64,000 nt of DNA, taken from positions 1 through 64,000 of the forward strand of contig JBBHKE010002940.1 in NCBI GenBank assembly GCA_037447655.1, in the 5' to 3' direction. Made by a program: the position numbers and the translations under genes. The notes under the pieces were generated by a model, which made no database searches, had not been told where the DNA came from, and saw only the letters and a list, made by a program, of their open reading frames with translations. This DNA is from Zygnema cylindricum. Taxonomy: Eukaryota; Streptophyta; Zygnematophyceae; Zygnematales; Zygnemataceae. Positions 13,982-64,000 of this stretch are shown here, piece by piece (the first letter of the stretch is position 1; each line of letters starts with the position of its first letter).

Positions 13982-14405
13982 TATAGGGACATGCCAAGCC
14001 AAAAATATACAACCTGTTTTGTTCTTAAGATTAGAGATGGAACTTGCTGCTAGAGCAGCAAATTAAAAAAGGTTATAGCTCAATCCACAATAGAGTCAGA
14101 ATACATGGCATCATCTTCCGCCATCAACGAGATCCTGCGGGTTAAGCCTATTTTATAGGAACTTAGGTATATGGAAACAGGTCGTCAATCTATCTAGTGT
14201 GATAACTAGGCAGCCATAGCCATTGCCTCTAACCCTAAACAACATTTTAAAAGTTAAAACATGGATGTTAGGCTTCACTTTGTTAGAAAAAAATTGCGTG
14301 CAAAAGTCATTAAAATGTGTTATTTACCGGATGGGAGGATGGTGGCTAACATGTTAACTAAAGCCCTTCCTACTCCTAAGTTGCAGTTCTGCAAAGAGGC
14401 TATTG
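13982..14405 (+). pseudogene. copia RNase H, 3' half (family B)
   Basis: Continuation of the domain broken at 9681: VLKIRDGTCC, KVIAQSTIESEYMASSSA, AAIAIASNPKQH, MDVRLHFVRKK and MVANMLTKALPTPKLQFC follow in copia order, with several stops. It is cut at 14405 by the E element; the last tens of bases of this element and its polypurine tract are at 21127-21168. Confidence 0.8.
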
Positions 14406-19762: not shown

Positions 19763-20098
19763 GAGGCAGAGTATATGGCCTCTTGTTCTACTGTGAAAGA
19801 GTTGACGTGGGTCAAATCCTTGTTGCAAGAACTATGGTATATGAAGAAGGGAGTGCATGAAGTGTTTTTAGATAATCAGGCTCCCATTGCAATTGCAGCT
19901 AATCCAAAACATCATTTTAAGGCTAAACATATGGACATACGATTGAGTTTTGTAAGAGAAAAAGTTGAGAATAAGATTGTGAATCTTGTATATAAATCTG
20001 ATGAGGAAATGGTGGCAAATATGATGACAAAACCGGTGCCTTCTCCCAAGTTAAAATATTGCAAAGATAAGTGTGGGTTAAAACTGAACTTAAAGTAA
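19763..20098 (+). pseudogene. copia RNase H C-terminal part (E element), open frame
   Basis: Undamaged tail of a copia polyprotein: EAEYMASCSTVKELTWVKSL, LDNQAPIAIAANPKHHFKAK, MDIRLSFVREK, MVANMMTKPVPSPKLKYC, then a TAA at 20096-20098. RNase H removes template RNA during reverse transcription. The N-terminal half is missing at the F insertion point, so the domain cannot work alone. The purine tract AAATAAAGGGAG follows before the LTR. Confidence 0.85.
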
Positions 20099-20117
20099 AA
20101 CTAGAAAATAAAGGGAG

Positions 20118-21126
20118 TGTTGAAATTATTAGATTTATGTGGTATTTTCTAGGTCTTAATAGTTCAGTACAAAAAGGAAAAAGAAAGGGGCGGACAGCCT
20201 ACCTCCACCTCCTCTCTCTAGCCACCATACTTGTTGTAGTCATTGAACGATAGAGAGGGTGGTTGAGCCATAGCTGCCTTAGTTCCACAGGCAGGACTAA
20301 ATAGTGACTTATGTCACTCTCTACAAAAGGTTGAGTCTGACATGACTCGAACCTCCGACTGGAAGAGTACACCGTAGCTATAAGCTCTAACCAATCTGTC
20401 GTAGAATTTCATTAAGATACACAGAGTTTGATACGTATTTAAACTTGTACATGGTCTTCTAACCGATTAACTAAAATGTGAACAAAGGAACATAAAACTA
20501 GTTAAAGTTTCAGTGCGGGCGTCATTTCGCACGAAACAAATGAATCAGACATTTGTTTCGACGGCCGACATTTAATGTCAGATTTCATCCAACAGCATGC
20601 ATCACTGCCGAGATCGCGAAATGGTCACTTTGGTGTTTATGGACGTGGCATAACTTGGCGCTATGTGGAGGGATAACATTTGGTTGTAGGAATTCCGAGG
20701 AATATACGGACGAGTGGAAAGGTGACACGCGTCCACTCAGTGGCCTTGTCGTACACAGGCCGTACAAAAAGGACACCGGTAGTAGTACCTTTCTGTACTT
20801 TACAGTCATGTGATTGGTTCATACTTTAGTAGATAGGGGTTATGAGAGAGGTTTAGGACTTGGGAAAATCTGGTAGGTGGTAACCAATCTCTTAGAGAGC
20901 TTTGTATAAAATTGGTATTTTTGCCGGCTCATAACTTATCGGTTGATCGGTTGTTTTCAGTAATTCTATTTGCTACGGACTAAGGGGAGTCCAAGCTACA
21001 CAGGGGTGCAGTCAGATTATCAGTTTGCTCTCTTGGACAGTAGTGGTTGTGGCTTGAAGTGGGTTAGTTAAAAGCTATCTAGAGGCTTCCTAAATTATAT
21101 AGTCCAATGGAGGACACATAATTGCA
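20118..21126 (+). repeat. LTR, family E (3' LTR)
   Basis: It starts TGTTGAAATTATTAG and ends ACATAATTGCA. TATAAAA at 20905-20911; gag-type ATG at 21107. Confidence 0.9.
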
Positions 21127-23344: not shown

Positions 23345-24400
23345 CCTGATGGAGGTTCACCCTAAGTTTTGTCTCGCTCGTCACGCGCATGTACCTTTAA
23401 TAAATTACGAGCGTGTATGGAAATATATTTGAAGGGGTTCCGGATCGTCCATTTAATTTATGGGTCGTTAGAAAAAGTGTACGTCGTCGTCATCTCCCCC
23501 CTTCCGTGGAATAGGCTTCCCATTGTCTCAGCGTACGAATATGATATTCCTACATCGTCCTTCAAATATTGTTCATGGTCTTACGGAGTATCCCCATATA
23601 TTACAATATCGATTTTTTTATGTCGTTTTCTCCAAAAATTTCAATCCCCAAAGATAAAAAAATTAGTCGAAAAAAAAAATACTTTTACCATGGTAGAATG
23701 AACGTTAATTTTATACTTTGAATGTACTCCATGTTTTCGTCTTGTGAACTCATTTTGGCGTTTTTTTCTTTTCGACCCTCGGGCAAGAGAATCTAGCTCA
23801 TCAAAAAACTATATCAAAAATCACCTCCCGAGGTGATTTTAGTTAGGGTATCACCCGGAAAACGAACCACGCACGCGCCACACGAGTGGGAAAAAATTTG
23901 AATCAGGGGTGAGTATTTCGCTATTTTTCTCCTAAGCCGTCACGTGCAAGTACAAAAAAAAAATTGCAAGGGTCTCGGACCTCCAATTTCATTCATAGGT
24001 CCCCTTCAAACTTTTACGCCGTCGTCGTCTCTCCTCTCTCCCTCTCACGCTATTGCTTTTATCTCACAGTTTTAGAGTGAGACACGACAATAGTGTGTGA
24101 AATGAAAGATATTTGAAAAATAATTATTTTGACTACCATTATGTATATTTTGATGGCAAGTAGAATGAGAAAAGTTGAAAAAACAAAACTGAAAAACCAT
24201 GGCGTAATGTTTTTGAGTCAGTGAAGTCGACGTCGTCATAAGTGAGAATGACGTCATAATGTCACAAAACCCTAAACATCTACAATGTCACAAAAATTAG
24301 ATGCATGTAGTTGTCGTTGTTTTCGTAGAGGTCAACAATTGTGGTAAGTTTCGTAGTAGTGATCAATCGTCATAAGTTATACCCACGTCTACAACTACAC
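23345..24400 (+). repeat. unclassified dispersed repeat R1, copy 1
   Basis: Similar over most of its length to 63130-64000, including CGGGCAAGAGAATC, CCACACGAGTGGGAAAA, GGGTCTCGGACCTCCA and CTCTCCCTCTCAC. Within this copy the CGTCACGCGCATGTAC...TCGGACCTCC...CGCCGTCGTCGTC block occurs twice (about 23375-23510 and 23936-24040). A perfect 11-bp stem sits at 23817-23840. No coding domain, LTR or TIR was recognised. Confidence 0.7.
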
Positions 24401-41104: not shown

Positions 41105-42186
41105 TACTGTTGGGTATTGAGGACCATTTATCGATATTCGATATATATCGATATTCGATATATATCGAATTTTAGGTACCCGATAATCGATATATCGCTT
41201 CGATATATCGAATTTCAAATTATCGCGATAAATCGCCGATATATCGTATTGCCGATATATCAAAGCTTTTTAAAAAAAAAAAAAAATCTTGCTAGTCAAT
41301 TCTCGGAAGAAGAGAAGGATCAAAGTGTCAAAGTGGTGGAGATGTTTTTTTTTTTTCACGAAAACTGTAAATGGACTAATTGGGAACCTAATTAATTGAG
41401 AATTGATTAGCTGCGGCTGCTAAAACTACGTGCCGCTCCAGCCAGAACTAGTGCTACTGCAGATGCTAGTATTAACTACTGTAGTACTAGCTGCTGGAAG
41501 TGCTACTGCAGCAAGTACTACTAGCTACTGCTACTCCAATTAATAAAAATAAGAATAAGATTTTACAATTTGTACACTTCAAAAATTAATTAATAATAAT
41601 AAGACTAAAAGTTCACATTTTATACACTTTAAAAAATAATAAATAAAAATAATAATTAAAACTCACATTTTGTACACTTCATAAAATGATTTATTAAAAT
41701 AATATACACTTCATAAAATATTGAATAAATATAAAAATAAGAATTTTCATTTTGTACACTTCAAAAATTAATAAATATAAATAATAATAAAAATTCATGC
41801 CTGAAACGAACAGTCTGCAATTTTTTTTTTCATATTATACTTCGACTAAATTAGTGTGGGTTTCAAGTTTTCATATGTGAAGTTTTGTACCATAGTACGC
41901 ACTAAATAAGTAACTATATGAATTAGTATTACAGTATTAATACTTTTTCGTTGGTTACATTTTGCGGCGTTACCTTTTAAGTCACGGAACGAAAATTACG
42001 TCGTACGTCGCGTTTCAAAAAAAATGTCGTTATCGCTAAAATAACATATTAAATAAAATATTTATTTTATAAAATACAATATATCGCGATATATATCGCG
42101 ATAATTTATGTTGGTCGTGGTACAATATATCGAGGACTTTAATATCGAAATTATCGCAATATGAAACTACCCGATACCTAACACCA
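41105..42186. mobile_element. hAT-like non-autonomous element
   Basis: A perfect 8-bp duplication GTGAGTAC flanks it (41097-41104 and 42187-42194). The termini TACTGTTGGGTATTG and (reverse complement of the right end) TGGTGTTAGGTATCG match at 11 of 15 positions. Subterminal regions are packed with CGATATATCG-type palindromes (41130-41260 and 42075-42150). An 8-bp duplication and TGTTGGG-like ends are hAT features. No transposase frame in 1.08 kb. Confidence 0.75.
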
Positions 42187-44830: not shown

Positions 44831-45590
44831 TTAAAGCACATATCCTATCGCTTCACGCTGCGTTAGATGGATTGTTTTCATATCTCTATCCCTTTCTACT
44901 TGAATTCCAATAATATAGTTTGCCTCACCTAAGTCCTTCATCTCAAATCTTGAATTCAAGGCTGCCTTTATTTTGTTAATTTCATTTAATGACTTGCTTA
45001 ACAGCTGCAAATCATCTACATATACCGCAATGTACATAATCCCATCTTTCCCTTCCATAACATAGACTGAGTGATCTGAGCTAATGCTAACAAATCCTAG
45101 ACTGGTTTGAAACTCATCTAGTTTTAGGTTCCACTGACGTGGAGCCTGCTTCAAACCATACAAGGATTTCAAAGTTTGCAGACCAGATTTTCTTTTCCAG
45201 TCTCTTCATACCTTTCAGGCTGCTTCATATAAATTAGTTCCTCTAAATCTCCATGCAAGAAAGCGGTCTTAACATACATTTGATGTAGTTCCATATTCTC
45301 AATGGCCGCTAAGGATAACAAAATTCTAACAGTTGGAAACAAGACAACAGGAGAGAAAGTCTCTTCATAGTCAATTCCCTCCTTCTGACTATAGCCTTTA
45401 GCAACAAGCCTAGCCTTTTATCTTTCAATAGAGTTATCTGGATTCAACTTTACTTTAAAGACCCACTTACACCCAAAGGCTTTTCCGTCTGGTGGAAGCT
45501 CCACAAGCTCCCAAGTTTGAGCCTCCATTATGGATCCCATTTCATCGTTAGCCGCAGCGATCCATTGATCTTTTTCAGTGTGGCTTAAAA
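44831..45590 (-). pseudogene. copia reverse transcriptase (J element)
   Basis: ANDEMGSIMEAQTWELVEL, GCKWVFKVKLNPDNSIER, a stop, then ARLVAKGYSQKEGIDYEETF and MELHQMYVKTAFLHGDLEE in frame, a frameshift near 45180, then SLYGLKQAPRQWNLKLDEF, YIAVYVDDLQLLSKS (catalytic YVDD) and FEMKDLGEANYIIGIQVERD. It is cut at about 45580 against the end of a plus-strand element, so gag, protease and integrase of J are missing. Confidence 0.85.
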
Positions 45591-46325
45591 GAGAAACTAA
45601 AATAAGACTAGAATTTAAGGGGAGTGCTAAAATCACTAGATTTAGGGGAGGTATTTTCTAGGTTTTAATTAGTTTAAATAGCAAAAAGAAAAAGCACAGA
45701 CAGCCTGCCTCCACCTTTTCTCTCTAGCCCTCATATTTCTTGTAGTCATTGAAGCACAGAGTGGGCGGTGGAGCCATAGCTGCCTCAACTCCATAGGCAG
45801 GACTAAAGAGTGACCTAAGTCACTCTCAACAAAAGGTTGAGTCCGGCAGGATTCGACCCTCTGACCGGCAGAGCGAGGCGTAGCCGTCAGCTCTTACCAG
45901 TTTGTCGTAATATTCCGTTAGGATACATAGGCTTTGATTTCTATTTAAACATTAGCTAGATCATTAATCGATTAACGGGATAACAAAGTGCAGACATACA
46001 AACTAGTTGACTTTCAGTACGCACGAAACAAATGTACAGGACATTTGTTTTTGAACGGCGAGCATTTAAAGTCAGTTTGGATCTGACGGCCCGCATCATC
46101 GCCGAGATCCCGGAATGGCCGCCTTGGCGGTTTTCGAACATGACATAACCTAGCGGCACATGGCAAGGTATCATCAAGAAAAGTAAATCCCGGAGAACAT
46201 GAGAACGTTTCTGAACGAGACAGACGTCCACTCCATGGCCTTGTGATACACAGGCCGTATAAAAAGTAAATCGGCCTTAGTACCTTTCTGTACCAAACAT
46301 TCTTCTGATTGGTTCCAAGGCAAAA
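45580..46325 (+). repeat. E-family copia 3' end: pol tail and truncated LTR
   Basis: CGLKEKLK-stop (end of a copia pol) at about 45578-45604, purine tract TTTAAGGGGAG, then an E-like LTR from 45625 (TGCTAAAATCACTAG; the TG is kept). It can be followed through AGGTTTTAATTAG, the tRNA-like module (about 45840-45910) and the GTAC-rich U3 to about 46320, where it stops before its TATA and hairpin region against the integrase of the gypsy element. Confidence 0.75.
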
Positions 46326-46878
46326 CCACCTACTCGATCAACTTAGAGAAATGTTATATCATGACCAGCATTAAGCGGTTCCCCCGCTTGCTGGTTGGAA
46401 AGGGTCCCAAAAAATCCCACAACCACTGATAAAACATCTCCCAGATAGGGAGCGAATGAAACTCTGTCCCGCCCTTTTTGTCATAAGCTGCCTTAACGCG
46501 ATCGCATGAGGAGCAAGTTTGCACAATTCGGTTGACTTAGGTCCGCAACCCATGCCACCAATAAGAGCCCGTAACCAAGGAAGTGGTCCGCTTTTGCCCG
46601 AAGTGTCCACATTGCCGATGGAGATTAAAAATCAGAGTTTCTCGGTCAGAGGGGGGAGGAACCACTTTCCTCGTACCGTCTGACCATTTCCGAAGGAGAA
46701 CGCCTCTGTCCCAATCATACGCAGCCATCCGGGTCTGTTCTCGGGATAAGGGAACTCTAGTCAAGTGGGGAAGAGGGGACCCCTGCTGGATAGATTGGAG
46801 AGCATCGGGGTCGTTCCTGATGTCCTTCCGTCCAGCCCCTATTGGTGCCTGCCCCTCCACATCGCAGAAAAAGTTCAC
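46325..46878 (-). pseudogene. gypsy integrase N-terminal part, truncated
   Basis: The H2C2 zinc-binding module is visible: LIFNLHRQCGHFGQKRTTSL gives the two His; after a frameshift near 46550, CSSCDRVKAAYDKKGG gives the two Cys. The catalytic core then begins (WLWDFLGPFPTSKRGN, first Asp, then HFSKLIE after a stop) and is cut at about 46325, so the second Asp and the Glu are missing. Confidence 0.8.
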
Positions 46879-46984
46879 GGTTCCCCCCTAGATTGGGGAA
46901 GCCAGATGAAAATGGAGGAGGCTCGAATGATTCCCAAGCTGATCTCAGGGTCCTCATCATGCCGAGGCCCGGTAGAATCCATGG

Positions 46985-47420
46985 TGGAGGGATCATGATT
47001 CCGGCTAAGTCTGTCGGCATTCCCATGGATCTCCCCGGCCCTATGAACAATGACGAAATCATATTCCTGCAGGATAAGAACCCATCTGGCGAGTTTGCCG
47101 GTCAACTTACTATTTTCCATGATCCATTTCAAGGGTTGGTGATCCGTAATCAGTGTGAAATGGACTCCGTACAAATAAGGCCGGAAATGCTAGATGGCCC
47201 AAACAGCTGCGAGTAACTCTCCTTGGTAACTGTTATAATTCCCCTCAGCTCTGTTGTTGCTCCTGTTGGCGTAGGCCACCACATATTCAGCTCGGGCATC
47301 ATCGACTTGAGCTAGAACCGCTCCCAATCCAAACCTGCTCAAATCAGTATAAAGGAGGAAAGGTCTATGGTGATCAGGCATTAGGAGCACGGGGTGCTGC
47401 TTTAGAGCATCCTTCAAGAA
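46985..47420 (-). pseudogene. gypsy RNase H
   Basis: Minus strand: PVLLMPDHHRPFLLYTDLSR and FGLGAVLAQVDDARAEYVVA, then NYNSYQGELLAAVWAI, and after one interruption VHFTLITDHQPLKWIMENSK, ARWVLILQEYDFVIVHRAG and NADRLSR. These are the standard gypsy RNase H blocks (YTDxSxxGLGAVL, E.LA.VWA, TDHxPLKW, HNxADxLSR) and are only lightly damaged. Confidence 0.9.
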
Positions 47421-47439
47421 CTGGAAGGAGATCTATTGT

Positions 47440-48290
47440 TTGTTGGCCTAATGATGCTCTTGGTCATTCCACAGTAGCTGGTTAAGGGGCTGGTTTTGAC
47501 TAGTGAACTCTAGGATAAATCGCCGATAGTAATTGGCCAAACTCAGAAAAGTGTGAAGTGTCGAGATGTCATGTGGTGGGGGAAGAGCGTCAAGTGCTCC
47601 CACCTTGACCATGTGGGGACCCACAGTCCGGGGTGTCACCTCATGTCCGAGGTAAATGATTTTATGCACCCCAAAAATGCCTTTGCCCGAGTGATATTTC
47701 AAACCCGCTGCTTGAAGTGCCCGCAAAATGATCTCGATATGCTCCAAGTGTTCCTCAAAGTATTTGAGAATATGATCACATCAACAATATAGCACCAGGA
47801 ACAATCGATTCCTCGAAGCGCTTTGTCCATTGCCCGTTGGAATTTGGCCGGTGCATTCTTCAGCCTCAATGGCATTTAAATCCATTCATATAGCTGGGAA
47901 CCGGCCCAAAATGTCTTTCGCTCTCGATGCTTCAGTTCCATAGCGATATGGTGGAACCCGTTCTTCATGTCCTGAGTGGAGTAGATAGTGGCACCAGCAA
48001 GCGAGTCGAATATCTCTTCCGCATTGGGCATCAGATACCTGTCAAATGTGGTGGCCGTGTTCAGCATGCGATAATCTCCACACATTCGGAAATCTACAGT
48101 TTTTCTAGACGAATCCTTCTTTGGAGGGAGAACCGTTGGGAAAGCAAACCCATGGAGTCCTGTACTTTCGTGAACCAATCCGGCTTCCACCAAAGTCTCG
48201 ACTTTAGCCGTGATGAATTCCTTCTCCTTGAAGCTGAGAAGATACTGCTTCTGCCAAACACTAGCCGTATCGTCGATTAAGTCGATTTAG
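47440..48290 (-). pseudogene. gypsy reverse transcriptase, catalytic motif damaged
   Basis: VEAGLVHESTGLHGFAFPTV and PPKKD..., RMCGDYRMLN, STQDMKNGFHHIAMELKHRE in the frame that also carries the methyltransferase; a frameshift near 47876, then LKNAPAKFQRAMDKALRG and YIVDVIIFSN, where the YxDD catalytic motif has lost its second Asp (Asp-Val); then GIFGVHKIIYLGHEVTPR and LHTFLSLANYYRRFI (connection region). Family assignment is firm; activity is excluded. Confidence 0.9.
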
Positions 48291-48719
48291 AAAGAGGTTG
48301 TTTTGTAGATGCCAACATTTAATTCTGATCATGAGAACACCTGCTTGTTTTTGACCAAGAGTTCGGAGAGCTCTGCCTTGTGCAGAGTGTCCAACTGCTC
48401 TCCCAAGGTCTAATCCATTTTCCCCGGCTCAACATCAGCCCAAGCTTCCAGCGGTCTACCCTAGAGGCTAATGTCAAACTCCAATCCTACCGGTGGATCT
48501 GCGTCTACCCCTCCCGCTAGAACATAACCGCTGACAACTTCCGCTAAACTATCGCTATATGAGTTATCACTCCCCCCTACTGGGAAAGTATGCAGTGGTG
48601 TAATGTGAATTTTTCTTCTCCTATCTCTCCCCCCCTCAAGCTTCAAAGTTGCTTGCATGGCTTACATTTGAGGGGCTTGAAGGTAAATAGCCTGAGCCTC
48701 TGGAGATTGGAGATTTGAA
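48291..48719 (-). other. linker between methyltransferase and reverse transcriptase
   Basis: Same frame as both neighbours, with several stops. KLEGGRDRRRKIHITPLHTF and LPVGLEFDISL are readable, then ELSELLVKNKQVFS, which looks like the usual segment just before a gypsy polymerase (L...LL..N..VF). It supports the domain being an integral part of pol. Confidence 0.6.
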
Positions 48720-49672
48720 AAGGCGAGAGCATGTTTGACTACCCATGTTATTGCATTCAGATCAATACTCTGCGCGATTAAGCTGCACCTCTATAGGTCT
48801 AAAATACCTGGTGCGGTCGTTGTGCCCGAAAGGAGTCACATTCCTTGTTCTCGTTCAGCAATTGTCGCTGTTGTCCAAAAACCTGTCTGGCTATCAAATA
48901 TCATTCTCGCTGCTCCTTTCCGATATTCGTGGCTAGAAGGAAAGGAGACCAATGTGGGGAGTGCTTTGCGGGGGACTCTTGGCCTGTTGCACCGGAAGAA
49001 AAAGGAGAGGTATATTTTCGTTACAGGTGTTGCTGTCCTTCCTTTCCCTATGATCTGTTGCACCGAGTTCCGGCGGTCTGGGATCTGTTCTTTTAAGAAT
49101 TTTTGGAGGACTAGTAGCGGAATAAAATTGGTCCAATAATCTCTAACTCTGTGTGCCCGAGATCCCATTAGCGCCGCGTCGAAGACCATGGGACTTCCTA
49201 TAATCTGAATCACCTTATTCCAGCTGTCGGGGACCTGTTTTCGTTGGTCGTCCCCCGTGTGGACATTCTCCAAAACGTACTCCATTAGTGCATCATGAAG
49301 CTGCTGTATCCATGAGATGACTTCAATCATCTGAAAAAATGTTCTACTCTTGCTGTCCTTGTGCCCCATCCCTTGTCCGGCTATTGAGTATCCCTGACAA
49401 GGCCACCCTGCTACTACCACATCCATCCTTCCCAGACTGGCTATAGGAGGTGTCATTATATTTTCCACATTCTGGGGAAGTTTCCGGTGGGCTTTGGAAA
49501 AGGCTTGCTCAGGAAGCTGCTGAGGATAAAGTTGGTGGAGTTGTTGCAGGCGATGTTTGCTTACTGCTCTCGCTTCGGACGATATCTCCACCACTATATA
49601 GGATTCTACCTTATATCCTGCTTTCAAAACGGCTTCCAATTCTGTACTGATTCCAAAAAATAAAGATAAAAT
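48720..49672 (-). pseudogene. cytosine-5 DNA methyltransferase domain, DNMT3/DRM-like
   Basis: It would transfer methyl groups from S-adenosylmethionine to cytosine in DNA. Motifs in order: I, ILSLFFGISTELEAVLKAG (cofactor binding; the second Gly is Ser); acidic VVEIS; IV, VVVAGWPCQGYSIAGQG with the catalytic Cys; SRTFFQMIEVI; VI, YVLENV with the Glu; VIII-like, MGSRAHRVRDYWTNF, typical of the DNMT3/DRM branch; then HEYRKG, a W-rich stretch and TIAEREQGM; and after a TGA at about 48833 a degenerate motif X (SLIAQSIDLNAITWVV). About 315 residues, so nearly all of a catalytic domain, with one stop before motif I and one or two near the end. It has no start codon of its own and is in frame with protease and reverse transcriptase. 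Confidence 0.9.
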
Positions 49673-49882: not shown

Positions 49883-50420
49883 CTAGATTTCCTCCGCTAA
49901 ATCTTTGGCGCTGGCAAAGAGTTCCGTCGGAGAGAAAGTAGCATACACCGGGTAGCACCCAGACACCGGGACATTGGTATTCCCCCGGTTCCATAAGTCC
50001 AAAAGAACCACCACTTTGGTTCCTTCCGAATTCTCGGGGTCCCGAACGGTACATTGTTCTTTCCACACGCTTAACCCCATATTCAGCCGGGTCCATGTGG
50101 CCATTCCCAACATAATTTCAAATTGAGTTCCTTTAACCATTAAGAATGGGAGCTCAATTTTTACCCTTTGGCCTACGTCATCTGAGAATTCAATTTTTAT
50201 GGCTTTGATTAATTCCATGGACTAGCTGACTACCGCTGCTTACCGTGCTTAGGCATATGTTGCTGGGGCATATTTCTGTCCAGAGTTCCTTTGGCATTTT
50301 CTGTAAAGTTGAGGTGGTAATGAGGTTGCGGAGCGCTTCGGTGTCAACTAGAGCGTCCTGATATCCTACGTAACCTTTGAGTTTGAAATTTCCCGTCCGG
50401 TTCACTATAAGAGCCACTCA
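49883..50420 (-). pseudogene. gypsy aspartic protease
   Basis: YQDALVDTEALRNLITTSTL carries the active-site block with Glu in place of Gly in D-T-G-A. After a frame change near 50200 the C-terminal half, VKIELPFLMVKGTQFEIMLG and MATWTRLNMGL, matches the ILG-x-x-W-L block of gypsy proteases. The second frame continues unbroken, apart from single stops, into the methyltransferase. Confidence 0.75.
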
Positions 50421-50540
50421 TTAAGCTTTGTAGTCCCTATCCACCATAGGGGTTTTCTGATCGGTAGACAAAAAGACGGCGGTCAGCAGAGTTGCTTGGT
50501 CGACTTTTTGTTTCCCAGAGTGTATTTCTTCTCCTAATGC

Positions 50541-50839
50541 CTAGATGAGGATTTCTTCGGGCATATTGTGGGAGGATGCCAGCGTCTTGACTAAGGTCAA
50601 GGCGTAGGGCAAGAGGTGCCGAACCAACATGACAACCAGCTTTGAGGAAGGAAGTTGAGCTTCTGGTGAAGAAGTTTGGGATTCTGGATTTTGCTGATCT
50701 TGCCCCTTTCCCTCTTTTTCGTCGCTTTCGAAACCGGAATCTGGTGCTGGTTGAGTTTGGGGAGTGTCCTCGTCCGTGCGTTCTGCCATGTATTTCTCAA
50801 ACCAATCTTGATTGCATTGTTTTTCTCTTTCTAGTGACT
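50541..50839 (-). pseudogene. gypsy pol/gag linker, Gln/Ser/Pro-rich
   Basis: MAERTDEDTPQTQPAPDSGF and ESDEKEGKGQDQQNPESQTS: acidic, low complexity, then KLVVMLVRHLLPYALTLVKT. No family recognised. It lies between the solo LTR and the protease. Confidence 0.45.
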
Positions 50840-52011
50840 TGAAATTCTATGGGCTCCATTGCCACAAAGAATTCGCAGGTTCAAAGGAAGCTAATCTAGA
50901 TAGTGCCGACTCTAACTTGATATAAACCCAAATGACTTGACCCCTTCACAATCATAACCCCTATATAGCTTCACCCTTGTGAAATAACACTTTCTGTGTG
51001 CTCAGTTCCACCACAGAATGCAAAGTTAGAATATGAGATTTGGACACATTCACCCACTTTGACTTTCCCTTATAAATGCAGCCTCCCAAGCATGCAAAGA
51101 CTCTTACCGATTACACACGTATGTAGCTTGGACTCCTCTGAGTCCGCAACAACAAGAATCGCTAAATTTGGTCAACTGAATTGATAGTTATGATTGGCCA
51201 AAGTTTGCCATTCATACGAGGTGCTCTCTGGCAGAGGCAGCTACCTGCCAGAAATATTCTAAGTCCTAGACCCTCTCTAAACCCCTAATATTGAAGTACG
51301 GCGCCAATCACAGGACTGTACTGTATAGAAAAGTACAGGCACCGGAGTACTTTCTGTACTCCAAGTGTACGACAAGACCATACAGGTGACAAATGTCACA
51401 TCCAAACTTCTTATCTTGCGTTCCAGAGATTTCGCAATCCTCCAGCGCATTTCCACGTGTCATCCGGAGTGGCGGCGCCTGAAAATGCCTAGGCGGCCAT
51501 TCCAGAATTTTGGCTCGCACCACGGCCGTCGATAAATTCGACTTTCATTTCTACCCGTCGAAAATATGTGCGCGGTATTTGTTTCGCCGTCGAAACAAAT
51601 GCGCGATATTAGTTTCGCGTAAACCGTACTACTCTAATCTGTTTCTATGTACTAAGAATTTTTTCGTTCCGTTAAATGAATTCGTATAGGTGTACAAGTT
51701 TATACAATTATCAAACCCTACATTTGTTAGCACTAGTCTTAGACTAAATGGATAAAGCTACCGGCTACGGGTCGATTGACGGACGGTAGGTACCAGGATC
51801 AAATCTTGGGTCCGTCAAATACCTTTTTAGTAAATATACCATTATCTACTCCTGTCTCTCTGGAGAGCTTAGGCAGCCATGGCTCTAGCTCCCTCTCCAG
51901 CCTTTAGTGACTACAACATCTGTAGGGGCTTAAAGAAGGGAGTCAGAGGCAGACTGCTTCTGCTATTTTCCCATCCTAAATAAAGACCTAGAAAATACTC
52001 AAATATCAAAA
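50840..52011 (-). repeat. solo LTR, subfamily A2
   Basis: On the minus strand it starts TTTTGATATTTGAG (TG altered to TT) and ends CATAGAATTTCA, flanked by a perfect TGACT duplication (50835-50839, 52012-52016). The antisense tRNA-like module is at about 51741-51815. Confidence 0.9.
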
Positions 52012-52265
52012 TGACTCCTTTTCTAATTGTTGTTTCTTGCTCTTTTAGTTTTCGAAACCGAAGGCAGGGTGGGTTTGGTAGGCGATAAATGAGTTGGTTT
52101 GATTGTGAGGCCGACCTCGCTGTTGAGAATCAACGCCCGAGGAGTAAATGACAAAAGCTTAGTAGCCTTCAGGTTGTGGTCCTTCTAACCCATTTGTTGT
52201 TTGTCTTTCCTTTGCTCCAAGGTAGAATGGCAGAGATGTCGGCGGTTATTTATTACCCCTGCACT

Positions 52266-52838
52266 TTATGCTCCGGATAGGAAAGTGCGGGCATGGTCGG
52301 CATTCGGAGGTTCCAAATTCCAACCCATTAGATCATCATCATTTTCACCCGCGGTGTCTTGAAGCTCTAGCTCCGCAAGATGTTTTAATAGCTCCTGTCG
52401 CTGTTTTTGGAGTCTTTGTGCCGCAGTGAGAGGAGGAACCCGAGAGGGAGATCGCAAGCAGAGGGCAACCAATTCTGCGGCCATTGCAACCAATTGCCGA
52501 CTCGGCTGCAAGATAATGGTCTCCGGGGTAAGCCTCGTTGGAGCAAATGTTGCTCTTTCTGGTTCCTCTTGGGTGAACGAAACTCTGCGTCCCCAATAGT
52601 AAAGAAGTTGAAGTGGGAGAGGGTTAACGGCGTTTTCACCTTCTCCGGTGAACAGGGCAAACTGCACCATCTCTTTACGGACTCCGTTTTTACGAAAACA
52701 TTGTTCCTTAAGTTGCACCATGAAGCCACAGGCTGCACATTTGGATCCTTCGGTGGTGTATTTTCCCCTCATCTTGTTAGACACCCGGGCATCATCAAAT
52801 TTCGGAAGCTTAATTTGCCTCAGTTGTGATTGAGACAT
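52266..52838 (-). pseudogene. gypsy element ORF segment of unknown function
   Basis: A 190-codon open stretch. It begins MSQSQLRQIKLPKFDDARVS, has two closely spaced Cys followed by another (SKCAACGFMVQLKEQCFRKNG), a middle with no motif, then a Leu/Gln-rich amphipathic helix (TAAQRLQKQRQELLKHLAEL) and an acidic tail. The Cys pattern is not a CCHC knuckle. Its position between gag and protease suggests a nucleocapsid-like or accessory part; no family recognised. Confidence 0.5.
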
Positions 52839-53015
52839 TTTAGTTGTTTCGGACCGGGGAGTTGGTCAGTAGGTTTCCTTGTTCACTGATGATTTTCCTT
52901 CCCCCCCTTCTCCTTGTTTTCATTTCGGCTGCTTACGGGTCCTTTCAGCTCTTTCTTTCTCCCACTCTTTTTGTTTAAGCACGAGTTATGGTTTGAGTCT
53001 GCGGGGGCAGCGTTT

Positions 53016-53701
53016 TCACCCGTGGCCTGTTTGTTGGCAATTCAGGATATTAAAAAAAATCATCCTGTCATCAGCCCCCATGGCTGGTTCTGATCTGCTA
53101 TCAACCGCTTGTTTGCCTTTAAGCTTCCGCAAAGCTTGAAGTTCATGTTGTTCCTCACTGCTTAAAGGGGTTTCTCCGGCAAACCCGGCGAAGTAAGACC
53201 TGGCCTTACCGGTGACAGCCTTATCCCGGGCATCACTGTGGGTGAAATGGTCGTACAGTTTCATGGCCACCAAGGAGATTTCCTTAGCCAAGGGCTTAAT
53301 CTCCTGGATGGCCTGCCTTGCACTCTAATTATCCAAAGCAGTCTCCCTGGTAGGTCCGAACGAATTTCGGACAGCGTTAAAGTATTTGGTTGCCATTGCA
53401 AGAAGGTCAATAGTTGAGAGTTTGGTTTTCTGGCAGAGGCTTGAGAGCCTATTGAAAAGGGTTTGCGGAGTCTCATTTTTCAAGCATCGAAATTCTGTGA
53501 ACTCCTTGATAGCAAACTCATTTCTCTCAATGTATAGGAGCTTCCATATGTTCAGAAGAGAGGTGCAAGGGTTGGGATTTGCGACCATCCGAGTTGCAAC
53601 CCACGCGGCTTGAGTAGCTTGCATATGGATGACATAGGCTCTTCCCTGTGCCTGCAGCTTCATATCATCCGTAAAAGTGGCAGTAACAGGTGTTGGCGCA
53701 G
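53016..53701 (-). pseudogene. gypsy Gag capsid-like region
   Basis: MKLQAQGRAYVIHMQATQAA, VATRMVANPNPCTSLLNIWK, LYIERNEFAIKEFTEFRCLK, ETPQTLFNRLSSLCQKTKLS: a helical segment resembling a retrotransposon capsid domain (role inferred from position and pattern). After one stop at about 53328 it continues LAKEISLVAMKLYDHFTH and ELQALRKLKGKQ. It is directly continuous with 54866-55800 once the solo LTR is removed. Confidence 0.6.
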
Positions 53702-54865
53702 TGTTGATATTTGAGTATTTTCTAGGTCTGTATTATAATAGGAAAAATGTAGAGGCGGTCTACCTCTAACTCCCTTTACCAAGCCCCCACACTTGTTGTA
53801 GTCACTGAAGGCTGGGTAGGGTGATAGGGCCATGGCTGCCTAAACCTTTCTAGCAGACAGTTAGCAGAAAATAGATGGGTTTACTAAAAGAATTGACGGA
53901 CCCAGGAATTGATCCTGGTACCTGCCGTTTGTCAATGTAGCCGTTAGCTTTGTCCGTTTAGTCTAGGACTAGTGCTAGGACATTTAGGGTTTGATAATTA
54001 TATAAATATGTACACGTAGACGAATGCATTTAACGGCGCAAAAAGATCCTTAGTACATAGAAACAGTTTAGTGAAGTATGGTTTGCGCGAAACTGATACC
54101 GCGCATTTGTTTCGACGGCGAAACAAATACCGCGCACTTATTTTCGACGGGTAAGAATGGATACCAGATTTAATCGACGGTCGTGGTGCTAGCCGAGATT
54201 CCGGAATGGCCGCCTTGGCGTTTTCTGACGCCGCCACTCCGGATGACACGTGGAAATGCGCTGGAGGATTGCGGAATCTCCGGAGCGCAAGATAACAAGT
54301 TTGGGTGTGACATTTGTCACTCGTATGATCTTATCGTACAATTTCCGTACAAAAAGTACTCCGGCGCCTGTACTTTTATGTACGGTACAGTCTTGTGATT
54401 GGCGCCGTACTTCAGTAGAAGGGGTTTAGAGAGGGACTAGAACTTAGAATATTTCTGGTAGGTAGATGCCTCTCCCAGAGAGCACCTTGTATAAATGGCA
54501 AACTTTGGCCAGCCATAACTATCAATTCAGTTGACCAAATTCAGTGATTCTTGTTGCTGCGGACTCAGGGGAGTCCAGGCTACACAGGGGTGTAGTCGGT
54601 CAGAGTTTTTGCCTGCCTGGGTGGCTGCATTTCTAAGGGAAAGTCAAAGTGGGGAATGTTATCCTATACTCATATTCTAACTTTGCATTCTGTAGTGAAA
54701 CTGAGCACACAGAGAGTCTTACTTTACAGGGGTGAAGCTGTAATGGGGTTCTGATTGTCAAGGGGTCAATCATTTGGGTTTATATTAACTTGGAGTCGGC
54801 ACTATCTAGATTAGCTTCCTTTGGACCTGCGAATTCTGTGTGGCAATGGAGCCAATAGAATTTCA
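53702..54865 (+). repeat. solo LTR, subfamily A2
   Basis: TGTTGATATTTGAG to TAGAATTTCA; target duplication CGCAG (53697-53701) versus GGCAG (54866-54870). TATAAAT at 54490-54496; hairpins GGACTC/GAGTCC (54561-54576) and CTACAC/GTGTAG (54580-54595). It splits the gypsy Gag. Confidence 0.9.
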
Positions 54866-57182
54866 GGCAGCTGTAGCCAAGTCGGCTTCTACTTGTAAAA
54901 CCTGTGCATCAAGAGCCAGGTCCAAAATCTTCATGCTTAGAGCCATCAAGAGTGGTTGTCTCTCCTTGTAATCCGCCAAAGCACCTCCTAAAAGGTAGTT
55001 GACCATCATTTGGAACAGAGTGAGGTCGAAGTCATCAAGAATGGCCCCGCCCCTGTATTTATCGATTTCGGAGTGCCTGAAAGATTTCCACAGCAATTCA
55101 AAATCCGAGAAAGAGATCCCCGAGCTATCTTCTGCAAAGATCCTTATGTCCCCCATTTCTTTCTCCCCCTCAGCAAGGTTGGTGAACTCTGGAGAGGCTA
55201 GTGTGGTGGGGCAGACAAACTGAGCCAGTGAAATTGCTCCGAGATCTCCCCGTTCTATATCCGAACCTTTTTCTCCTACGGGTGTAACAGCTGGGATCCT
55301 CCACCCCATTGAGGGTGGTCTTGCTGTCAAAGGAGGTGTGGAATTTTTGGCTCCTCTATATTCAGAAGTGTATTGTTCCTCTCTTAAAACTGTCTCCACT
55401 GATGGGATGTGGAGACGAGGTCTATTGAAAGGCCTTGGTGGAATGGACAGTGGCCAAGACGGAAACATAGACTGCTGGGGCCTTGTAGGAAAAGGCATAT
55501 GTCTCCTAGTTCGCCTCCTAGATGTCTCGGGAGATGGAGTGCCTGAGTTGGAAATAGGAGAACGTCTGTGAGCAGGTGAATAGGCGGGGACGTCGTATTT
55601 GTAAGGTAAGAGAGGCGCGTCTGGGGACCCACGGACGGCTGTAGTTGGAGAAAGGGATGGCGAAGGAGAGGAGGCGTGAGGTGGTGATGGGGGAGGAGTG
55701 TACAGTCTGAGAGAAATCGGTAATCTCTGGTCGGGTTGTAGTTGCACTACGGCCTCCATAGTGGAAGTTCCTGCCACCGAGACAAAGGTCTAATGCTCAG
55801 TGGTAGCAGCTGCCATGTTACCCAGTAGGTCTGCTCCCAACCCCTCTTTGTTAGGCCTTGTCGTTCTCCCCGTTTCACGTTGAAGGGGAGATTCCGGTCT
55901 AGAATCCGGTGAAGTCGTGGGAGCTTGCGTCGCGGAGGAGTTGATTGACCCTGAGGTGGCCCTCTGGCAGAAGGATTTGTCCTATGAGGAGGAGCTACCT
56001 GTCCACTAAGGATCCCCCTTGATCTCCGTCTAGCCTCCCTAATAAGGAGCAGCTCGTGCTCTAGTCCCTGCATTCTTTCCTTTTCAAGAGCCTCCCTGTC
56101 TATGATGACGGGTCCGGCCCCCGCCGTAGCTTGACTTTGTGAATGCAGGATATCAACCAATTTTTGTGTGCTGCTCACCACACCCGAGAGATCCGCAATC
56201 CCCAAATCCGGTACCTCGAGGTCTGTGGGTCTAGAACGCCAGAACCTTTCGAAAGGTCGAACAACAGGTGTTGATGTAGACAGGGAGCTCGGAGAGACTG
56301 AGGCTGAAGGGAAGAACGGCTCCACTTTAGGTCGAGGAGCAAACCTGCCCTTGCTGTCTCGATGGTCAAACCGGTGCACTCTCTTAAGCTTTGGTAACCC
56401 TCGCATGCTTGTCCCTTCCCCGGCCCGGGCCCGAGAGGTCCCCCTGCCCCGAGACGATCCATTGGTTGCAGTGTCTTAAGATTGGGTAGGATGCCGGTGT
56501 GAAGTTGATGGCATCCCCTGTTGCTCCTGGGCTGAAGGTTAAGAGCCGCTCTCGGACAAACTGCTCTATATCTCCACTACACCTCCCACTAGGCGTACGA
56601 TCCTGGCTCGGTTAGTCTTGGCTACACGTTGTACCAACTCCTTCTTAACCTTCAACTCATGGAGATTATGAAGGGCTAATATTACTATGCACCCTGGCCA
56701 GTAAGGATTTGCAAAGTTTAAGGATCCATATACATCTCCGCTATCGGAGCCTTAGATCTGGTATAGCGCTTGACCTCGGGAGGGTGACCAGAGACCGCTT
56801 CCCAATGGGCCAACCCCTTTTTACGTGATTTAGGGGATAATGTCGCTCTCTCCTACTTCTCCAAGGCCCTAGCTCTGGCAGCCTCGGACAAAGGTTGGAA
56901 GTTCTCGAAAGAAAAGTCAGGTGGAGGTGGAGGAGAGGTTTGCCTCACTAGCTATTTTGGAGGAGTTTCAGCTGTAACAACCAGAGGCATCATTCCCTTA
57001 AGAAAGCGCTCTATATTTAAAGGTGAGGCAAAAGAGACTGATTCCTCGGGCACCTGTGACTCTTCCTGCGGGGCAAACGTACCCTAACTACCTTGCTCCT
57101 CAGATCCGATTTCAAAGGCCCCTTTTTCCAGAGCTTCTCCCCCACCTATCGAGTGATGGCTAACGGACAGAACTATCGGAAC
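54866..57182 (-). pseudogene. gypsy Gag, long Pro/Ser-rich N-terminal region
   Basis: Two long frames: 56406-55747 (KRVHRFDHRDSKGRFAPRPK, SVSPSSLSTSTPVVRPFERF, a helical LEKERMQGLEHELLLIREAR) and, after a frameshift near 55800, 55777-54866 (YTPPPSPPHASSPSPSLSPT, SYSPAHRR-like repeats, then ISFSDFELLWKSFRHSEIDK and LTLFQMMVNYLLGGALADYK). From 56470 to 57182 the same strand still looks coding but is heavily interrupted. Probably the disordered N-terminal part of a large Gag; the class is inferred from position only. Confidence 0.55.
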
Positions 57183-58353
57183 TGTTGATATATGAGTATT
57201 TTTTAGGTCTTTATTTAGGATAGGAAAAGAGGAGAAGTAATCTGCCTTTTACTCCTTTCTCTAAGCCCCCACACTTGTTGTAGTCACTGAAGGCTGGAGA
57301 GGGAGCTAGAGCCATGGCTGCCTAAGCTCTCTAGAGAGACAGGAGTAGATAATGGTATGTTTACTAAAAAGGTATTTGACGATCCCAATATTCGATCCTG
57401 GTACCTACCGTTTGTCAATCGACCCGTAGCCTGTAGCTTTATCCATTTAGTCTACGACTAGTGCTAGGACATGTAGGGTTTGATAATTGTATAAACATGT
57501 ACACGTAGACAAATTCATTTAACGGCCCGAATAAATTCTTAGTACATAGAAACAGATTAGAGTAGTACGGTTTACCCGATACTAATATCGCGCATTTGTT
57601 TCAACGGCGAAACAAATACCGCGCACATATTTTCGACGGGTATAAATGAATGTCGAATTTAATCGACGGCCGTGGTGCGAGCCGAGAATCCGAAATGGCC
57701 GCCTTGGCGTTTTCTGGCGTCGCCACTCCGGATGACACGTGGAATGCGCTGGAGGATTGCAAAATCTCTGGAACGTAAGATAACAAGTTTGGATGTGACA
57801 GTTGTCACCTGTATGGTCTTGTCGTACAGTTGCCGTACAGAAAGTACTCCGGCGCCTGTACTTTTCTGTACGGTACAGTCCTGTGATTGGCGGCGTATTT
57901 CAGTATTAGGGGTTTAGAGAGGGACTATGACTTATAATATTTCTGGTAGGTAGCTACCTCTACTAGAGAGCACCTTGTATAAATGGCAAACTTTTGCCAG
58001 CCATAACTAACAACTTAGTTGACCAAATTCAGTGATTCTTGTTGCTGCGGACTCAGGGGAGTCCACGCTACACACGGAAGTAGTCGTTTAGAGTCTTTGC
58101 TACTTGGGTGGCTGCATTTTTAAGGGAAAGTCAAAGTGGGTGAATGTGTCCAAATCTCATATTCTAACTTTGCATTTTGTGGTGGAACTGAGCACACAAA
58201 AAGTGTTATTTCACAAGGGTGAAGTTATATAAGGGTTCTGATTGTCAAGGGGTTAGTCATTTGAGACTGACCCCTAGTTGGAGTCGGCACTATCTAGATT
58301 AGCTTTCTTTGAACCTGCGAATTATGTGTGGCAATGGAGCCCATAGAATTACA
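57183..58353 (+). repeat. solo LTR, subfamily A2
   Basis: TGTTGATATATGAG to ATAGAATTACA, flanked by a perfect GGAAC duplication (57178-57182 and 58354-58358). TATAAAT at 57978-57984. Confidence 0.9.
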
Positions 58354-60948
58354 GGAACTATCGGTAACGAGAACCCTAACTCATCCCAAAAACTGAGGGT
58401 CCCAAAATCTGAAGCTTTTATCCTCTCTAATCCGAATGAGAGTGATGGTTGTTTTCAGTACTGTTGTGATCCGCTGGAAGTCGGCCAAATGCCTCCTCAA
58501 AACCCACTCTTCTGGTACAAAAGATTCTAGCAGTCTTTTCCAACGAGGCCACCGTCGAAGTAAAAGGACTAGCAAGGATGAACAAATAAACTTCCATGCA
58601 GGATTAATAAAAATAAAAAGAATTGGCTATTTCAGATTTAACAATATCACCTTGCCCCAAAAAATGGAATAAAAGATCGAATTAATAATGATAGCAAACC
58701 AAGCTCAACATACCCCCAAAAGAAACGTTGACAACAAGAGGAGACAAAATCTCTCTCGAAGACACTGAATCAAGTAAAGCCTCCTTAACTCCTCGGTTTT
58801 CGCAACCCGAAACTGGCAAGACCCTTCTCGGTATCCAACAAACACCAGTCTCAAATCGCCCAAACAGAAAAGATAGTGCCAACTAACCAACCGGACTACG
58901 ACTTCCACAAAGGACGGATGCAAACCAAGATGGCAATAAGGTCACAATCACATACAAAACAAAAGTTCTCCAAAAGAAAGTTTGCTGGAATTTCTAAGGT
59001 TTTTCTCGGAGACAGTACTAAAAACAGCAACCTGTCTTCTTCAGCCCCAAGCGCCTTATACAATTGAATTTGTGGGTCTCAGATCCAAAAGGTCAACACA
59101 ATGCAAGGAGTCAATGAGCAAAGAGCAATTGCTATCAAAAAAACATAGGACAAATTACAGACAGCTAACAGCAAAATCTAGATTACAGTCCGGAAGTCTA
59201 CGTGGCAATCCACAATGTACCCTCCACTAGGGCTGGTGGAAGCTAGTACTATGTGACGGAACTGCGATCTTTCAGACGGTAGAACTTTGTCGTCCAGCCT
59301 CCGTTAGGCACGAAACAAAGTGCGTCTTGTTCAGTAGAGAAAATACTTCAATCCTTTCGGCAGGTTGTGCGGGCTTCTCCGAAATTTGAGAATAGTACGG
59401 GTCGGAAGGGTACGGAAATCCTCGGTAATATAGAAGTGTGCCTGAAAAGCACTCAAGCTTGACAGTACACGTGTGGGCGTCAACGAATGACAGTTGGCGT
59501 CGACAATTGTCCGAGTATGTCAAGAGCTCTTTGCGGCGTATCAATGTCCGCAATTTGTTCCGAAACCGTTGGCGTCTACAAATGTCAGCTATTTGGGTGT
59601 CACAAGTATTGGCGACGTTACAGCTGCCACATATTCAAAATAATGAACGCGCAAGTAACGATTCACATAGGCACACTTTGAAAAGTACACCGTAAAATCA
59701 ACGCTAAATTCCAAAATAACATTTCAAAATATCGGTTACATGGGGACACGCCTTTATTCCTTGTACAACGAGGATAAACGACACGTCACGTGGTCCTATA
59801 TTTGAACCGTTGCCATCAACATGAAGCTCCATCGACTTAGTAAGCTTAGGAGCCAGGGGCGCGCCAATAGGTCATACACTTATGACCAATCATCATTGGA
59901 CAACAAGTGGTCCCCACAGGATCCTTTTCAAGTGGAATGAGACCACTTGAACTCAACGGAGCGATAAAATATATCGACTCCAAATTGCCTAAAGTGTACG
60001 GAGGTCAATTTTTATATCGAGGAAGTACCCGCGAGATTTTTATTGTGGCCAAAATTATACATGGCGATATTTTATAGGATGTATCACCCAAAACTCTAGT
60101 GGGAGTGTTAGTTTTGGACGATCTTTTCGGTAATATATTGATTTTGACAAAACTGTTGATTTGGATATGTTTGGCGTGATGTGACGTGGCGACCCAGAAT
60201 ATATGGAATCAAACAAAACAACTACGTGTTTTAATGAATGTTTCTATACGAAATTGTGTACATACGTGTAGGAATTCACGGTGGAAATTCAATGTGTACA
60301 TACGGTATGAGTGTTGTTCTGAGACAATTGCTGGTACCAAAGACGATGAGGATGTAGGTGTAGTCATCTCATAATTAAAACAAACAAGAAGATTTCACCA
60401 AAACCGGTCTGAAAAACAACAACTTCAACATTTGATAACTTACAAACCAAAGACAAAATAGCTCTACAAATCTACTATAATATAGTAATAACAGTAGGAA
60501 CACACACACACAAATTTACAAAGATTTCTTATGACATAATTGTGATATATTCACAGATAAAATTACTAAAAACTTCATACATAGTTTTTGATACAAAATG
60601 TTCCTAACTCTAAAAATGACTAAGTCCTAATCATATACACTGAAGCTTCACTACTGATTGTACGGAAGCATTCTTGCAGTACAACTAACAACTTGACACA
60701 CCTAATACTTTGCATAAACCCGAAAACATAAGGTATGTCATACTCAACACATTCTACGCTAATTAACTAATTGGCTAAGTGACAAACTTATGTTATACAA
60801 ATATGTAAACCGACATAAGATTTAGAATGCGACGTAGGATTATCATGAATCTAGTCATTGTTTCGTCAGCAATTGTCGGCGGCCTCTGTCTGCCGTCCAT
60901 CAATCTGAATTCGACATCGTAGGGTTGCCTTTACAGGTCTTTGTGGTC
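58354..60948. other. no recognisable gene
   Basis: The part next to 58354 may be the untranslated 5' region of the gypsy element, but I found neither an LTR end nor a primer-binding site. Small frames (for example 58309-58530, 58705-58923) show no family match. A palindrome GGTCATACACTTATGACC lies at about 59869-59887, and CA repeats at about 60499-60511. Confidence 0.4.
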
Positions 60949-63129: not shown

Positions 63130-64000
63130 GCAGGTGACCTAAGGACCTTAAACGTTTTCGTGGCCTGTCCGCATTTGACGTTATATTATAGTCTTAGGGA
63201 GTATCCCCATGTATCAAAGTATCTACTTTTTTCGTTTAGCCCCAAAATTTAGGAAACTTTGAGAAAAACTTTAACTGTACGAGAAAATCATTTCTACCAC
63301 ACTATAGTGAACGCCAATTCGATACTTTGAATGTACTGCATGTTTGTCGTCATGTGAACGCATTTAAGCCTTTTCCTCTTTTCAACCTTCGGGCAAGAGA
63401 ATCCAACCCATCAAAAGACTTCATAAAAAATCACCTCAATAGGATGTTTTTAGTACAAGTATCACCCAAACATCGAATGAAAAACGACCCACGCACGTGC
63501 CACACGAGTGGGAAAATTTTGGGACGAGGGAGGCTACTTGTTATTTTTCTCCCTACCCGTCACGCGCATCTACAGAAAAGACAAGCATGTACGGAAATAA
63601 ATTTGGAGGGGTCTCGGACCTCCACTTTCATTCATGGGTCCTTCGCAAAAATTTACGCCGTCCTCGCCTCTCCCCTCTCCCTCTCACACATCATTTTTAT
63701 CTAACACTTATTAGAATGAGGCATGACAATACTGGTATGAAATGAAAGGTATTTGAAAAAAATTTCTTTTGACTACCTTTTATGTATTTTTTGATGGCGA
63801 GTCGAGTGAGAAAAGTCGTAAAAACAAAATCAGGTAGCCATGGCTCAAAGTTCTTAAATATGTGACGTCGACGTTGTCACAAGTGAGCATGGCGTCATAA
63901 TGTCACAAAACCCAAAACATATGTTATATCACAAAATTAAAAAAAATCTAGCTGTCTACAACTTTCGCTGTTTTTGTTGGCGTCACCAATTTCGTTGTCC
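63130..64000 (+). repeat. unclassified dispersed repeat R1, copy 2
   Basis: Collinear with 23500-24400 through GAGTATCCCCAT, ATACTTTGAATGTACT, CGGGCAAGAGAATCC, CCACACGAGTGGGAAAA, GGTCTCGGACCTCCA and TAATGTCACAAAACCC; it runs off the window end. No coding domain. Confidence 0.7.

Follow-up and report, generated by a model that had tools for sequence, protein, structure and literature searches.

A degraded gypsy-type retrotransposon carrying a Dnmt3-like cytosine methyltransferase in Pol, and its family in the genome of Zygnema cylindricum

Analysis of a 64-kb stretch of the Zygnema cylindricum genome (the whole stretch is called the window here) revealed a degraded copy of a Ty3/gypsy element that carries a Dnmt3-like cytosine-5 DNA methyltransferase (DNMT) inside Pol. 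The element belongs to a known but rare kind described in few algae, that of KnitGypsy-Dnmt3 from Klebsormidium nitens, the precedent for a gypsy element carrying a DNMT (de Mendoza et al. 2018, PMC5890265). In the explanation that we favour, with a probability of about 0.7, the DNMT was most likely taken into Pol once, before the lineages of the family split, was kept there by purifying selection, and acts in the replication cycle proposed at the end of this paper.

Results

The methyltransferase domain

The minus strand of the window translates, from 49672 to 48720, into a nearly complete C5-cytosine methyltransferase. A first-pass annotation made from the letters alone had proposed such an enzyme there and a profile search as the way to check it; the proposal was borne out by a significant match to PF00145 (DNA_methylase; E 5.7e-8, 33 bits, Pfam cut-off 22), and the outcome that would have counted against it, no significant match, did not occur. 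TIGR00675 (NCBIfam dcm) matched with E 3.1e-11 and 43.5 bits, under the model cut-off of 100.65. All the motifs that the annotation had named (I, IV with PCQ, VI with ENV, VIII and X) were located (Table 1); the residues are in the sequence, and the motif names follow common usage. Motifs I, IV, VI and VIII share one open frame of 278 codons, and motif X lies behind an in-frame TGA at 48838 and TAG at 48793. The motif order I-IV-VI-VIII-X is unpermuted in the window DNMT and in the aligned intact copies, and the permuted order of the DRM type (VI-X before I-V) was found in none of them. Between 50212 and 47757 the DNMT frame contains 10 stops in 818 codons, compared with 52 and 37 stops in the other two frames; counted from 50476 on, the numbers are 17 in 925 codons versus 56 and 39. 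Neither a second DNMT copy nor an Rfam match was found within the window.

To place the domain among known enzymes, we compared it with solved structures. The window DNMT, with its two internal stops written as X, matched DNMT3C (E 3.3e-6), DNMT3B (3.8e-5) and DNMT3A (2.2e-4; best entry of each) in the PDB, and the best HhaI entry came next (7e-4). With a profile of the family, DNMT3 was matched at E 6e-18 and the next family at 8e-8; in bits, DNMT3A reached 68 versus 35 for HaeIII, 34 for DNMT2 and 31 for DRM2, the DRM2 match being restricted to profile positions 1-125. Judged by these scores, the element DNMT appears closest to DNMT3 among solved structures.

Table 1. Features of the element copy in the window and of the insertions in and next to it.
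Feature	Position	Strand	Evidence or remark
A repeat (5' terminal repeat) and leader, approximate	58589..59465	-	blastn with sister copy e27
Copia-type solo LTR between leader and gag	57183..58355	+	target duplication GGAAC/GGAAC
Gag	52110..57149	-	tblastn with L011 and L012 gag frames; DNA collinearity
Solo LTR, same copia-type family, in gag	53702..54867	+	target duplication CGCAG/GGCAG (4/5)
Solo LTR, same copia-type family, in gag	50840..52009	-	target duplication AGTCA/AGTCA
End of Gag and protease region	49886..50682	-	tblastn with L011 frame, 67-70% identity over 50633-49886; three-frame translation
Dnmt3-like C5-cytosine methyltransferase in Pol	48720..49672	-	Pfam, NCBIfam and PDB matches, frame
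Motif I	49672-49646	-	window DNMT
Motif IV GWPCQGYS	49408-49385	-	window DNMT
Motif VI ENV	49270-49262	-	window DNMT
Motif VIII SRAHRVRDYWTN	49162-49127	-	window DNMT
Motif X	48790-48725	-	window DNMT, downstream of two in-frame stops
Reverse transcriptase	47756..48300	-	PF00078 E 1.3e-4, under its cut-off; L011 1-723 aligns with 49882-47756
Reverse transcriptase end and RNase H	46848..47786	-	PF17917 E 5.9e-10; 80% identity to L011 711-1026
Integrase H2C2 and start of catalytic core	46264..46887	-	PF17921 E 1.2e-8; tblastn with L011
Other LTR-like repeat adjoining cut-off integrase	45577..46315	+	similar to 20070-20820 and 14405-15106

The element copy in the window

The DNMT had been placed between the protease (PR) and the reverse transcriptase (RT) of a gypsy element, and this placement held. 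For the frames of two sister loci, L011 and L012, collinearity with the window extends from Gag as far as the integrase (L011 at 46-80% amino-acid identity, tblastn), and the Dnmt3-like domain lies inside Pol together with gypsy domains. At the DNA level the window is collinear with the sister copies e12 and e27 from about 59.5 kb to 46324 (longer pieces at 67-77%), where the match to sister copies stops; because the window copy ends inside the integrase, it lacks the remainder of that core as well as the PHD finger. The protease active site reads DTE at 50345 (DTG in L009) and this stretch is in a different frame from the DNMT, the region above about 50212 being in another frame and the region below it in the DNMT frame. 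The RT is in the DNMT frame, with stops at 48289 and 47878. Gag is broken by one solo LTR and parted from its end by another. With its stops, its frame change, the three solo LTRs and the cut-off in the integrase core, the copy in the window is an old one that can no longer be active.

The 1.17-kb repeat at 50840-52009 was considered as the LTR of the element itself and rejected, since it occupies three sites in two orientations inside the element, each with a perfect or near-perfect target duplication, and also adjoins copia pol frames at 9682-10820. From this last copy we infer that the solo-LTR family is of the copia type. A pair of LTRs of the same family (9682-10820 and 12838-13976) encloses an internal part of only 2 kb and is perhaps a non-autonomous element. 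The window also contains a 0.75-kb direct repeat (23575-24295 and 63188-63936, 74.5% identical) and a series of AT-rich repeat units at intervals of 50 to 82 bp (41523-41797).

A large family in the genome

A search of the genome (352.8 Mb, 2,689 contigs) gave 782 candidates for PF00145, of which 123 were scored and all 123 were above the cut-off; the window copy is not among these listed matches. Twenty loci of 10 kb were taken from the scored set, mostly for their long open frames, along with the eight best-scoring loci (3.2-3.5 kb), five of which overlap the 10-kb set (L002/L027, L004/L028, L005/L021, L006/L011 and L008/L022). The annotation had proposed a search for copies with the same neighbours and had named a host gene as the result that would speak against an element. 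In seven of the eight best-scoring loci, PR- and/or RT-side element sequence lies beside the DNMT, as it does in all six of the best matches fetched with a DNMT3C query, and RT is present in 21 of 21 loci (the 20 ten-kb loci and the window). The exception is L007, where a 100-aa, exon-like frame with GGPPCQGASGHNRF (1498-1797) stands without gypsy neighbours; its motif resembles that of plant chromomethylases, and we take this frame to be probably an exon of a host chromomethylase. No clear host Dnmt3 gene was found among the 145 matches listed for the DNMT3C query, for which 150 of 486 candidates were scored, exons singly, and six were fetched. These data reveal a large family of DNMT-carrying relatives in the genome, with hundreds of copies.

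The longest open frame found, in L009, spans 2,395 aa and reads Gag-PR-DNMT-RT-RNaseH-INT-PHD, with 44 bits for the DNMT, 104 for RT, 118 for RNase H (RH), 56 for the H2C2 zinc finger and 45 for the core of the integrase (INT) and 38 for the PHD finger; the zinc knuckle (16.6 bits) and the protease (16.7 bits) are both under their own cut-offs. The PHD finger of L009 (9189-9323) is C-terminal in the Gag-Pol frame. L011 and L012 show the same DNMT-RT-RNase H-INT order, and their PHD matches are weak (17.5 and 21.5 bits; Pfam cut-off 24). A strict PHD pattern was found in 9 of the 20 ten-kb loci, all nine belonging to the ECQ lineage described below.

Two lineages that differ before the catalytic cysteine

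Motif IV separates the family into two lineages. It reads PCQ in the window, L001, L002, L003, L006, L008, L011, L012, L019, L022, L023 and L027, and ECQ in L005, L009, L010, L013-L018, L020, L021 and L024-L026; the pattern had no match in L004/L028 and L007. In the ECQ lineage Glu replaces Pro before the catalytic Cys (GWECQG, but GSECQG in L021), and the other motifs are intact in its unbroken copies. This lineage, which lacks the motif IV proline, includes the longest frames. The DNMTs of the two lineages are about 40% identical.

Six of the ten DNMT-tree splits supported at 80 or more are found again in the tree of RT, and the one between PCQ and ECQ is among these six; the four that are absent all lie within the two lineages. 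Together the trees suggest that the DNMT was acquired once, ahead of the PCQ/ECQ split. In a small origin tree (10 element DNMTs, DNMT3, phage enzymes and HhaI), the element DNMTs stand apart from DNMT3, the phage enzymes and HhaI with support 100.

Nine loci with intact DNMT domains gave 36 pairs for the estimation of dN/dS, of which 27 were saturated in dS and one was dropped as too close. In the eight pairs with dS 0.10-0.20, dN/dS of the DNMT was 0.12-0.35, values that are pushed down because only intact domains entered and the loci had mostly been picked for long frames. One unsaturated pair allowed the DNMT to be compared with RT (0.13 vs 0.07), and between ECQ sublineages dN of the DNMT was 0.11-0.16 with dS saturated. 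These values point to purifying selection on the element DNMT.

Split repeats and evidence for integrase insertion

The element is gypsy by its domains and not by its repeat plan, since split repeats take the place of a normal LTR pair and its tRNA primer site. The order PR-RT-RH-INT with an H2C2 zinc finger and an integrase core was found, the protease matching under Pfam cut-offs and the window copy reaching only to the start of the core. No LTR pair of the ordinary kind was found, and no TGG-type tRNA primer site directly follows A1 in e9, e13, e15 or e27. The plan A1-coding-B1-A2-B2 was present in seven of the eight loci examined with flanks; in e12, which has copia insertions, no such split repeats were found. 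The A repeats of e9 are 100% identical over 931 bp and its B repeats 99.6%, and the A repeats of the other copies are 80% (e13), 99.6% (e15), 99.5% (e16), 96% (e20), 93% (e25) and 83% (e27) identical. Copies e9, e13 and e15 have a run of G ahead of B1.

A junction GACA-GC-TGTC is located between B1 and A2. An exact match to GACAGCTGTCATGCC was found in 7 of 35 loci, and the genome contains 304 copies of a 19-mer of the junction when one mismatch is allowed, versus a single one of a reversed control pattern. In L009 the internal B-GC-A junction is at 9619-9633. The outer ends of the split-repeat copies read TGTC...GACA, and four of six copies are flanked by exact 4-bp target duplications (TTGG in e9, AAGG in e15, CCCT in e16 and CCCC in e20), the other two matching at three of four bases (AAAG/AAGG in e25, TCAT/GCAT in e13); e27 was left out of this scoring, its 5' end being degraded. 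Split direct repeats, as in elements of the DIRS order, are thus found in sister copies. No tyrosine recombinase appears among the Pfam matches of L009, L011 and L012, which have integrase H2C2 and core instead. Elements of the DIRS order are not known to make a target duplication, and exact duplications were found here in most of the scored copies. The TGTC...GACA ends together with the 4-bp duplications point to insertion by an integrase, and the internal junction could restore complete ends, its GC corresponding to the bases that an integrase would trim.

CpG content of the two lineages

The ratio of observed to expected CpG was computed over 3 kb from the DNMT. It averages 0.57 on the PCQ side (range 0.52-0.61, 6 loci) and 0.87 in the ECQ lineage (range 0.76-1.08, 13 loci), with no overlap; these loci represent two clades, and a test p-value carries no weight here. 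L028, the motif IV of which is unread, has 0.82. The GpC control differs less (0.82 vs 0.93). In the window itself, the element has 0.63 and four DNMT-free copia stretches have 0.43-0.47, so that CpG loss is no mark of DNMT carriers. CpG depletion as a general sign of self-methylation is therefore unsupported, and methylation by the host alone could explain the PCQ values. The contrast between the lineages fits a difference in methylation by the element or of it. That the element methylates its own copies is plausible, a reading that the CpG data do not clearly favour.

Discussion

Alternative explanations

That a methyltransferase gene of the host, or its processed copy, merely lies next to a gypsy fragment might be suspected from the decay of the window copy and the many other insertions around it. 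The sister copies refute this: the DNMT is fused in frame with RT, the same order recurs in the longer sister frames, RT is present in the window and all 20 ten-kb loci, and seven of the eight best-scoring loci have gypsy neighbours, which leaves this explanation a negligible probability. An origin of the element DNMT from a bacterial or phage methyltransferase, and not from a eukaryotic Dnmt3, is rather improbable. It would accord with the phage enzymes found by tblastn (162 records, all below 60% identity; 23-30% identity and E down to 9e-14 among the 20 listed) and with the small tree, in which the placement of the phage group and DNMT3 relative to the elements has a support of 69, too low to separate the two. 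Against it stand the family profile, by which DNMT3A is 33 bits ahead of the next family among solved structures, and motif VIII, where AHRVR..WTN resembles AHRAR..WGN of DNMT3, though phage copies can end in YWTN too. A pattern-limited scan of other genome contigs, which is weak evidence, confirmed none of 94 candidate stretches as relatives. Viral contigs yielded none of 11 candidate stretches in a single-sequence search and 2 of 44 in an alignment search, both Dcm-like genes matching over 45-56 residues, and megablast found no relatives in plasmids.

The two remaining alternatives accept the element and concern what the DNMT does. It could be kept for a non-catalytic role, at least in the ECQ lineage, as a scaffold that binds SAM or DNA within the particle, comparable to DNMT3L in its complex. 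We regard this as unlikely. In its favour, motif IV reads GWECQG or GSECQG in all 13 readable loci of the ECQ clade (L028 is a fourteenth member in the tree, unread), this lineage shows little CpG loss, and KnitGypsy-Dnmt3 gave no detectable methylation in yeast, a result that its authors call inconclusive, as human DNMT3B failed there too (PMC5890265). On the other side, the catalytic Cys, ENV (ENI in L009 and L010), RVR and motif I are kept in both lineages wherever intact copies were aligned, and motif IV is normal in the PCQ lineage, including the window copy. Action mainly in trans, on the host genome and its silencing and not on the element's own cDNA, was raised for dinoflagellates by de Mendoza et al. 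(PMC5890265) and would suit copies numbering in the hundreds. We consider it improbable, since the in-frame fusion to RT locates the DNMT with the cDNA, and the methylome of K. nitens is described as plant-like despite such elements (PMC5890265).

Relation to known elements

The first-pass annotation had named a streptophyte alga and dinoflagellates as carriers of such domains, rightly according to PMC5890265. Compared with its published description there, KnitGypsy-Dnmt3 shares with the Zygnema family the gypsy domain set, an unpermuted Dnmt3-related domain in Pol, A-coding-B-A-B repeats (DIRS-type repeats with Gypsy domains in the Fig. 4 legend), the absence of introns, the presence of several copies and purifying selection. 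The Zygnema family differs in several respects. Its Pol ends in a PHD finger, a word absent from the main text of PMC5890265; it has an ECQ lineage, whereas the KnitGypsy copies are said to keep the key residues; and it has 304 repeat junctions in a 353-Mb genome, K. nitens being said to have fewer copies. It also shows target duplications and an end-encoding junction, and the main text of PMC5890265 names duplications for SymbioLINE only. SymbioDIRS-Dnmt3 and SymbioLINE-Dnmt of dinoflagellates, described there as separate acquisitions, are likewise retrotransposons with a cytosine DNMT, and the repeat plan of SymbioDIRS-Dnmt3 is that of the Zygnema family; they use a tyrosine recombinase or a LINE endonuclease, in contrast to the DDE-type integrase found here (PMC5890265). 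Ty3/gypsy elements of orchids also took up a nucleic-acid modification enzyme, an m6A RNA demethylase-like domain, but in an extra ORF and not inside Pol (PMC9289625).

The C-terminal PHD finger invites a further comparison. Chromoviruses are chromodomain Ty3/gypsy elements with the order Gag-PR-RT-RH-INT and a domain of the histone-reader type at the C-terminus. The Zygnema family has the same order and the same type of terminal domain; it differs in having a PHD finger for the chromodomain, a DNMT between PR and RT, and split direct repeats.

In the open-licence literature (titles and abstract openings, among the matches listed), no gypsy element with a PHD finger, or with split direct repeats and an integrase, was found beyond PMC5890265. 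PMC3286476 was considered as a precedent for gypsy with a PHD finger and rejected, as it concerns a host gene adjoining an insertion. PMC12344493, with the 2018 paper as its reference, speaks of 'LTR Copia and DIRS' as the elements that have Dnmt3; the 2018 paper itself says Gypsy. As far as this literature goes, the new features are how large the family is, its PHD finger, its ECQ lineage and the insertion evidence for the split-repeat plan.

Proposed replication cycle and its meaning

In the cycle that we propose, the Gag-PR-DNMT-RT-RH-INT-PHD polyprotein, the architecture of which is read from the open frames, would be made as one chain and then cut. The RNA would be copied, and in the observed arrangement A1-coding-B1-GC-A2-B2 the internal B-GC-A junction would serve as the template for the ends of the finished DNA. 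The DNMT, packaged with RT, may methylate the new cDNA, so that a copy would arrive already marked. Insertion would be the work of the DDE-type integrase, with TGTC and GACA as the ends of the copy and 4 bp of the target duplicated, as the scars around the copies suggest. The PHD finger may direct this step through recognition of a histone tail, as chromodomains do in chromoviruses.

More tentatively, and with clearly less confidence, the family could be an epigenetic retroelement with a writer (the Dnmt3-like domain) and a reader (the PHD finger) in one Gag-Pol. Its cycle would then be a hybrid, in which DIRS-like split repeats, whose B-GC-A junction encodes complete ends including the two bases that the integrase trims, are followed by integrase insertion with 4-bp duplications. 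The lineages differ in Pro or Glu before the catalytic Cys and in CpG, as if self-methylation had persisted in one of them and, in the other, had been lost or had moved to another context.

The insertion scars suggest a way in which split repeats and a DDE-type integrase can be combined in one working element. The two lineages, distinguished by their catalytic motif and by the extent of CpG loss, offer a natural contrast within a large family. The host uses cytosine methylation against transposons, and an element that keeps a methyltransferase of its own raises the question of who benefits.
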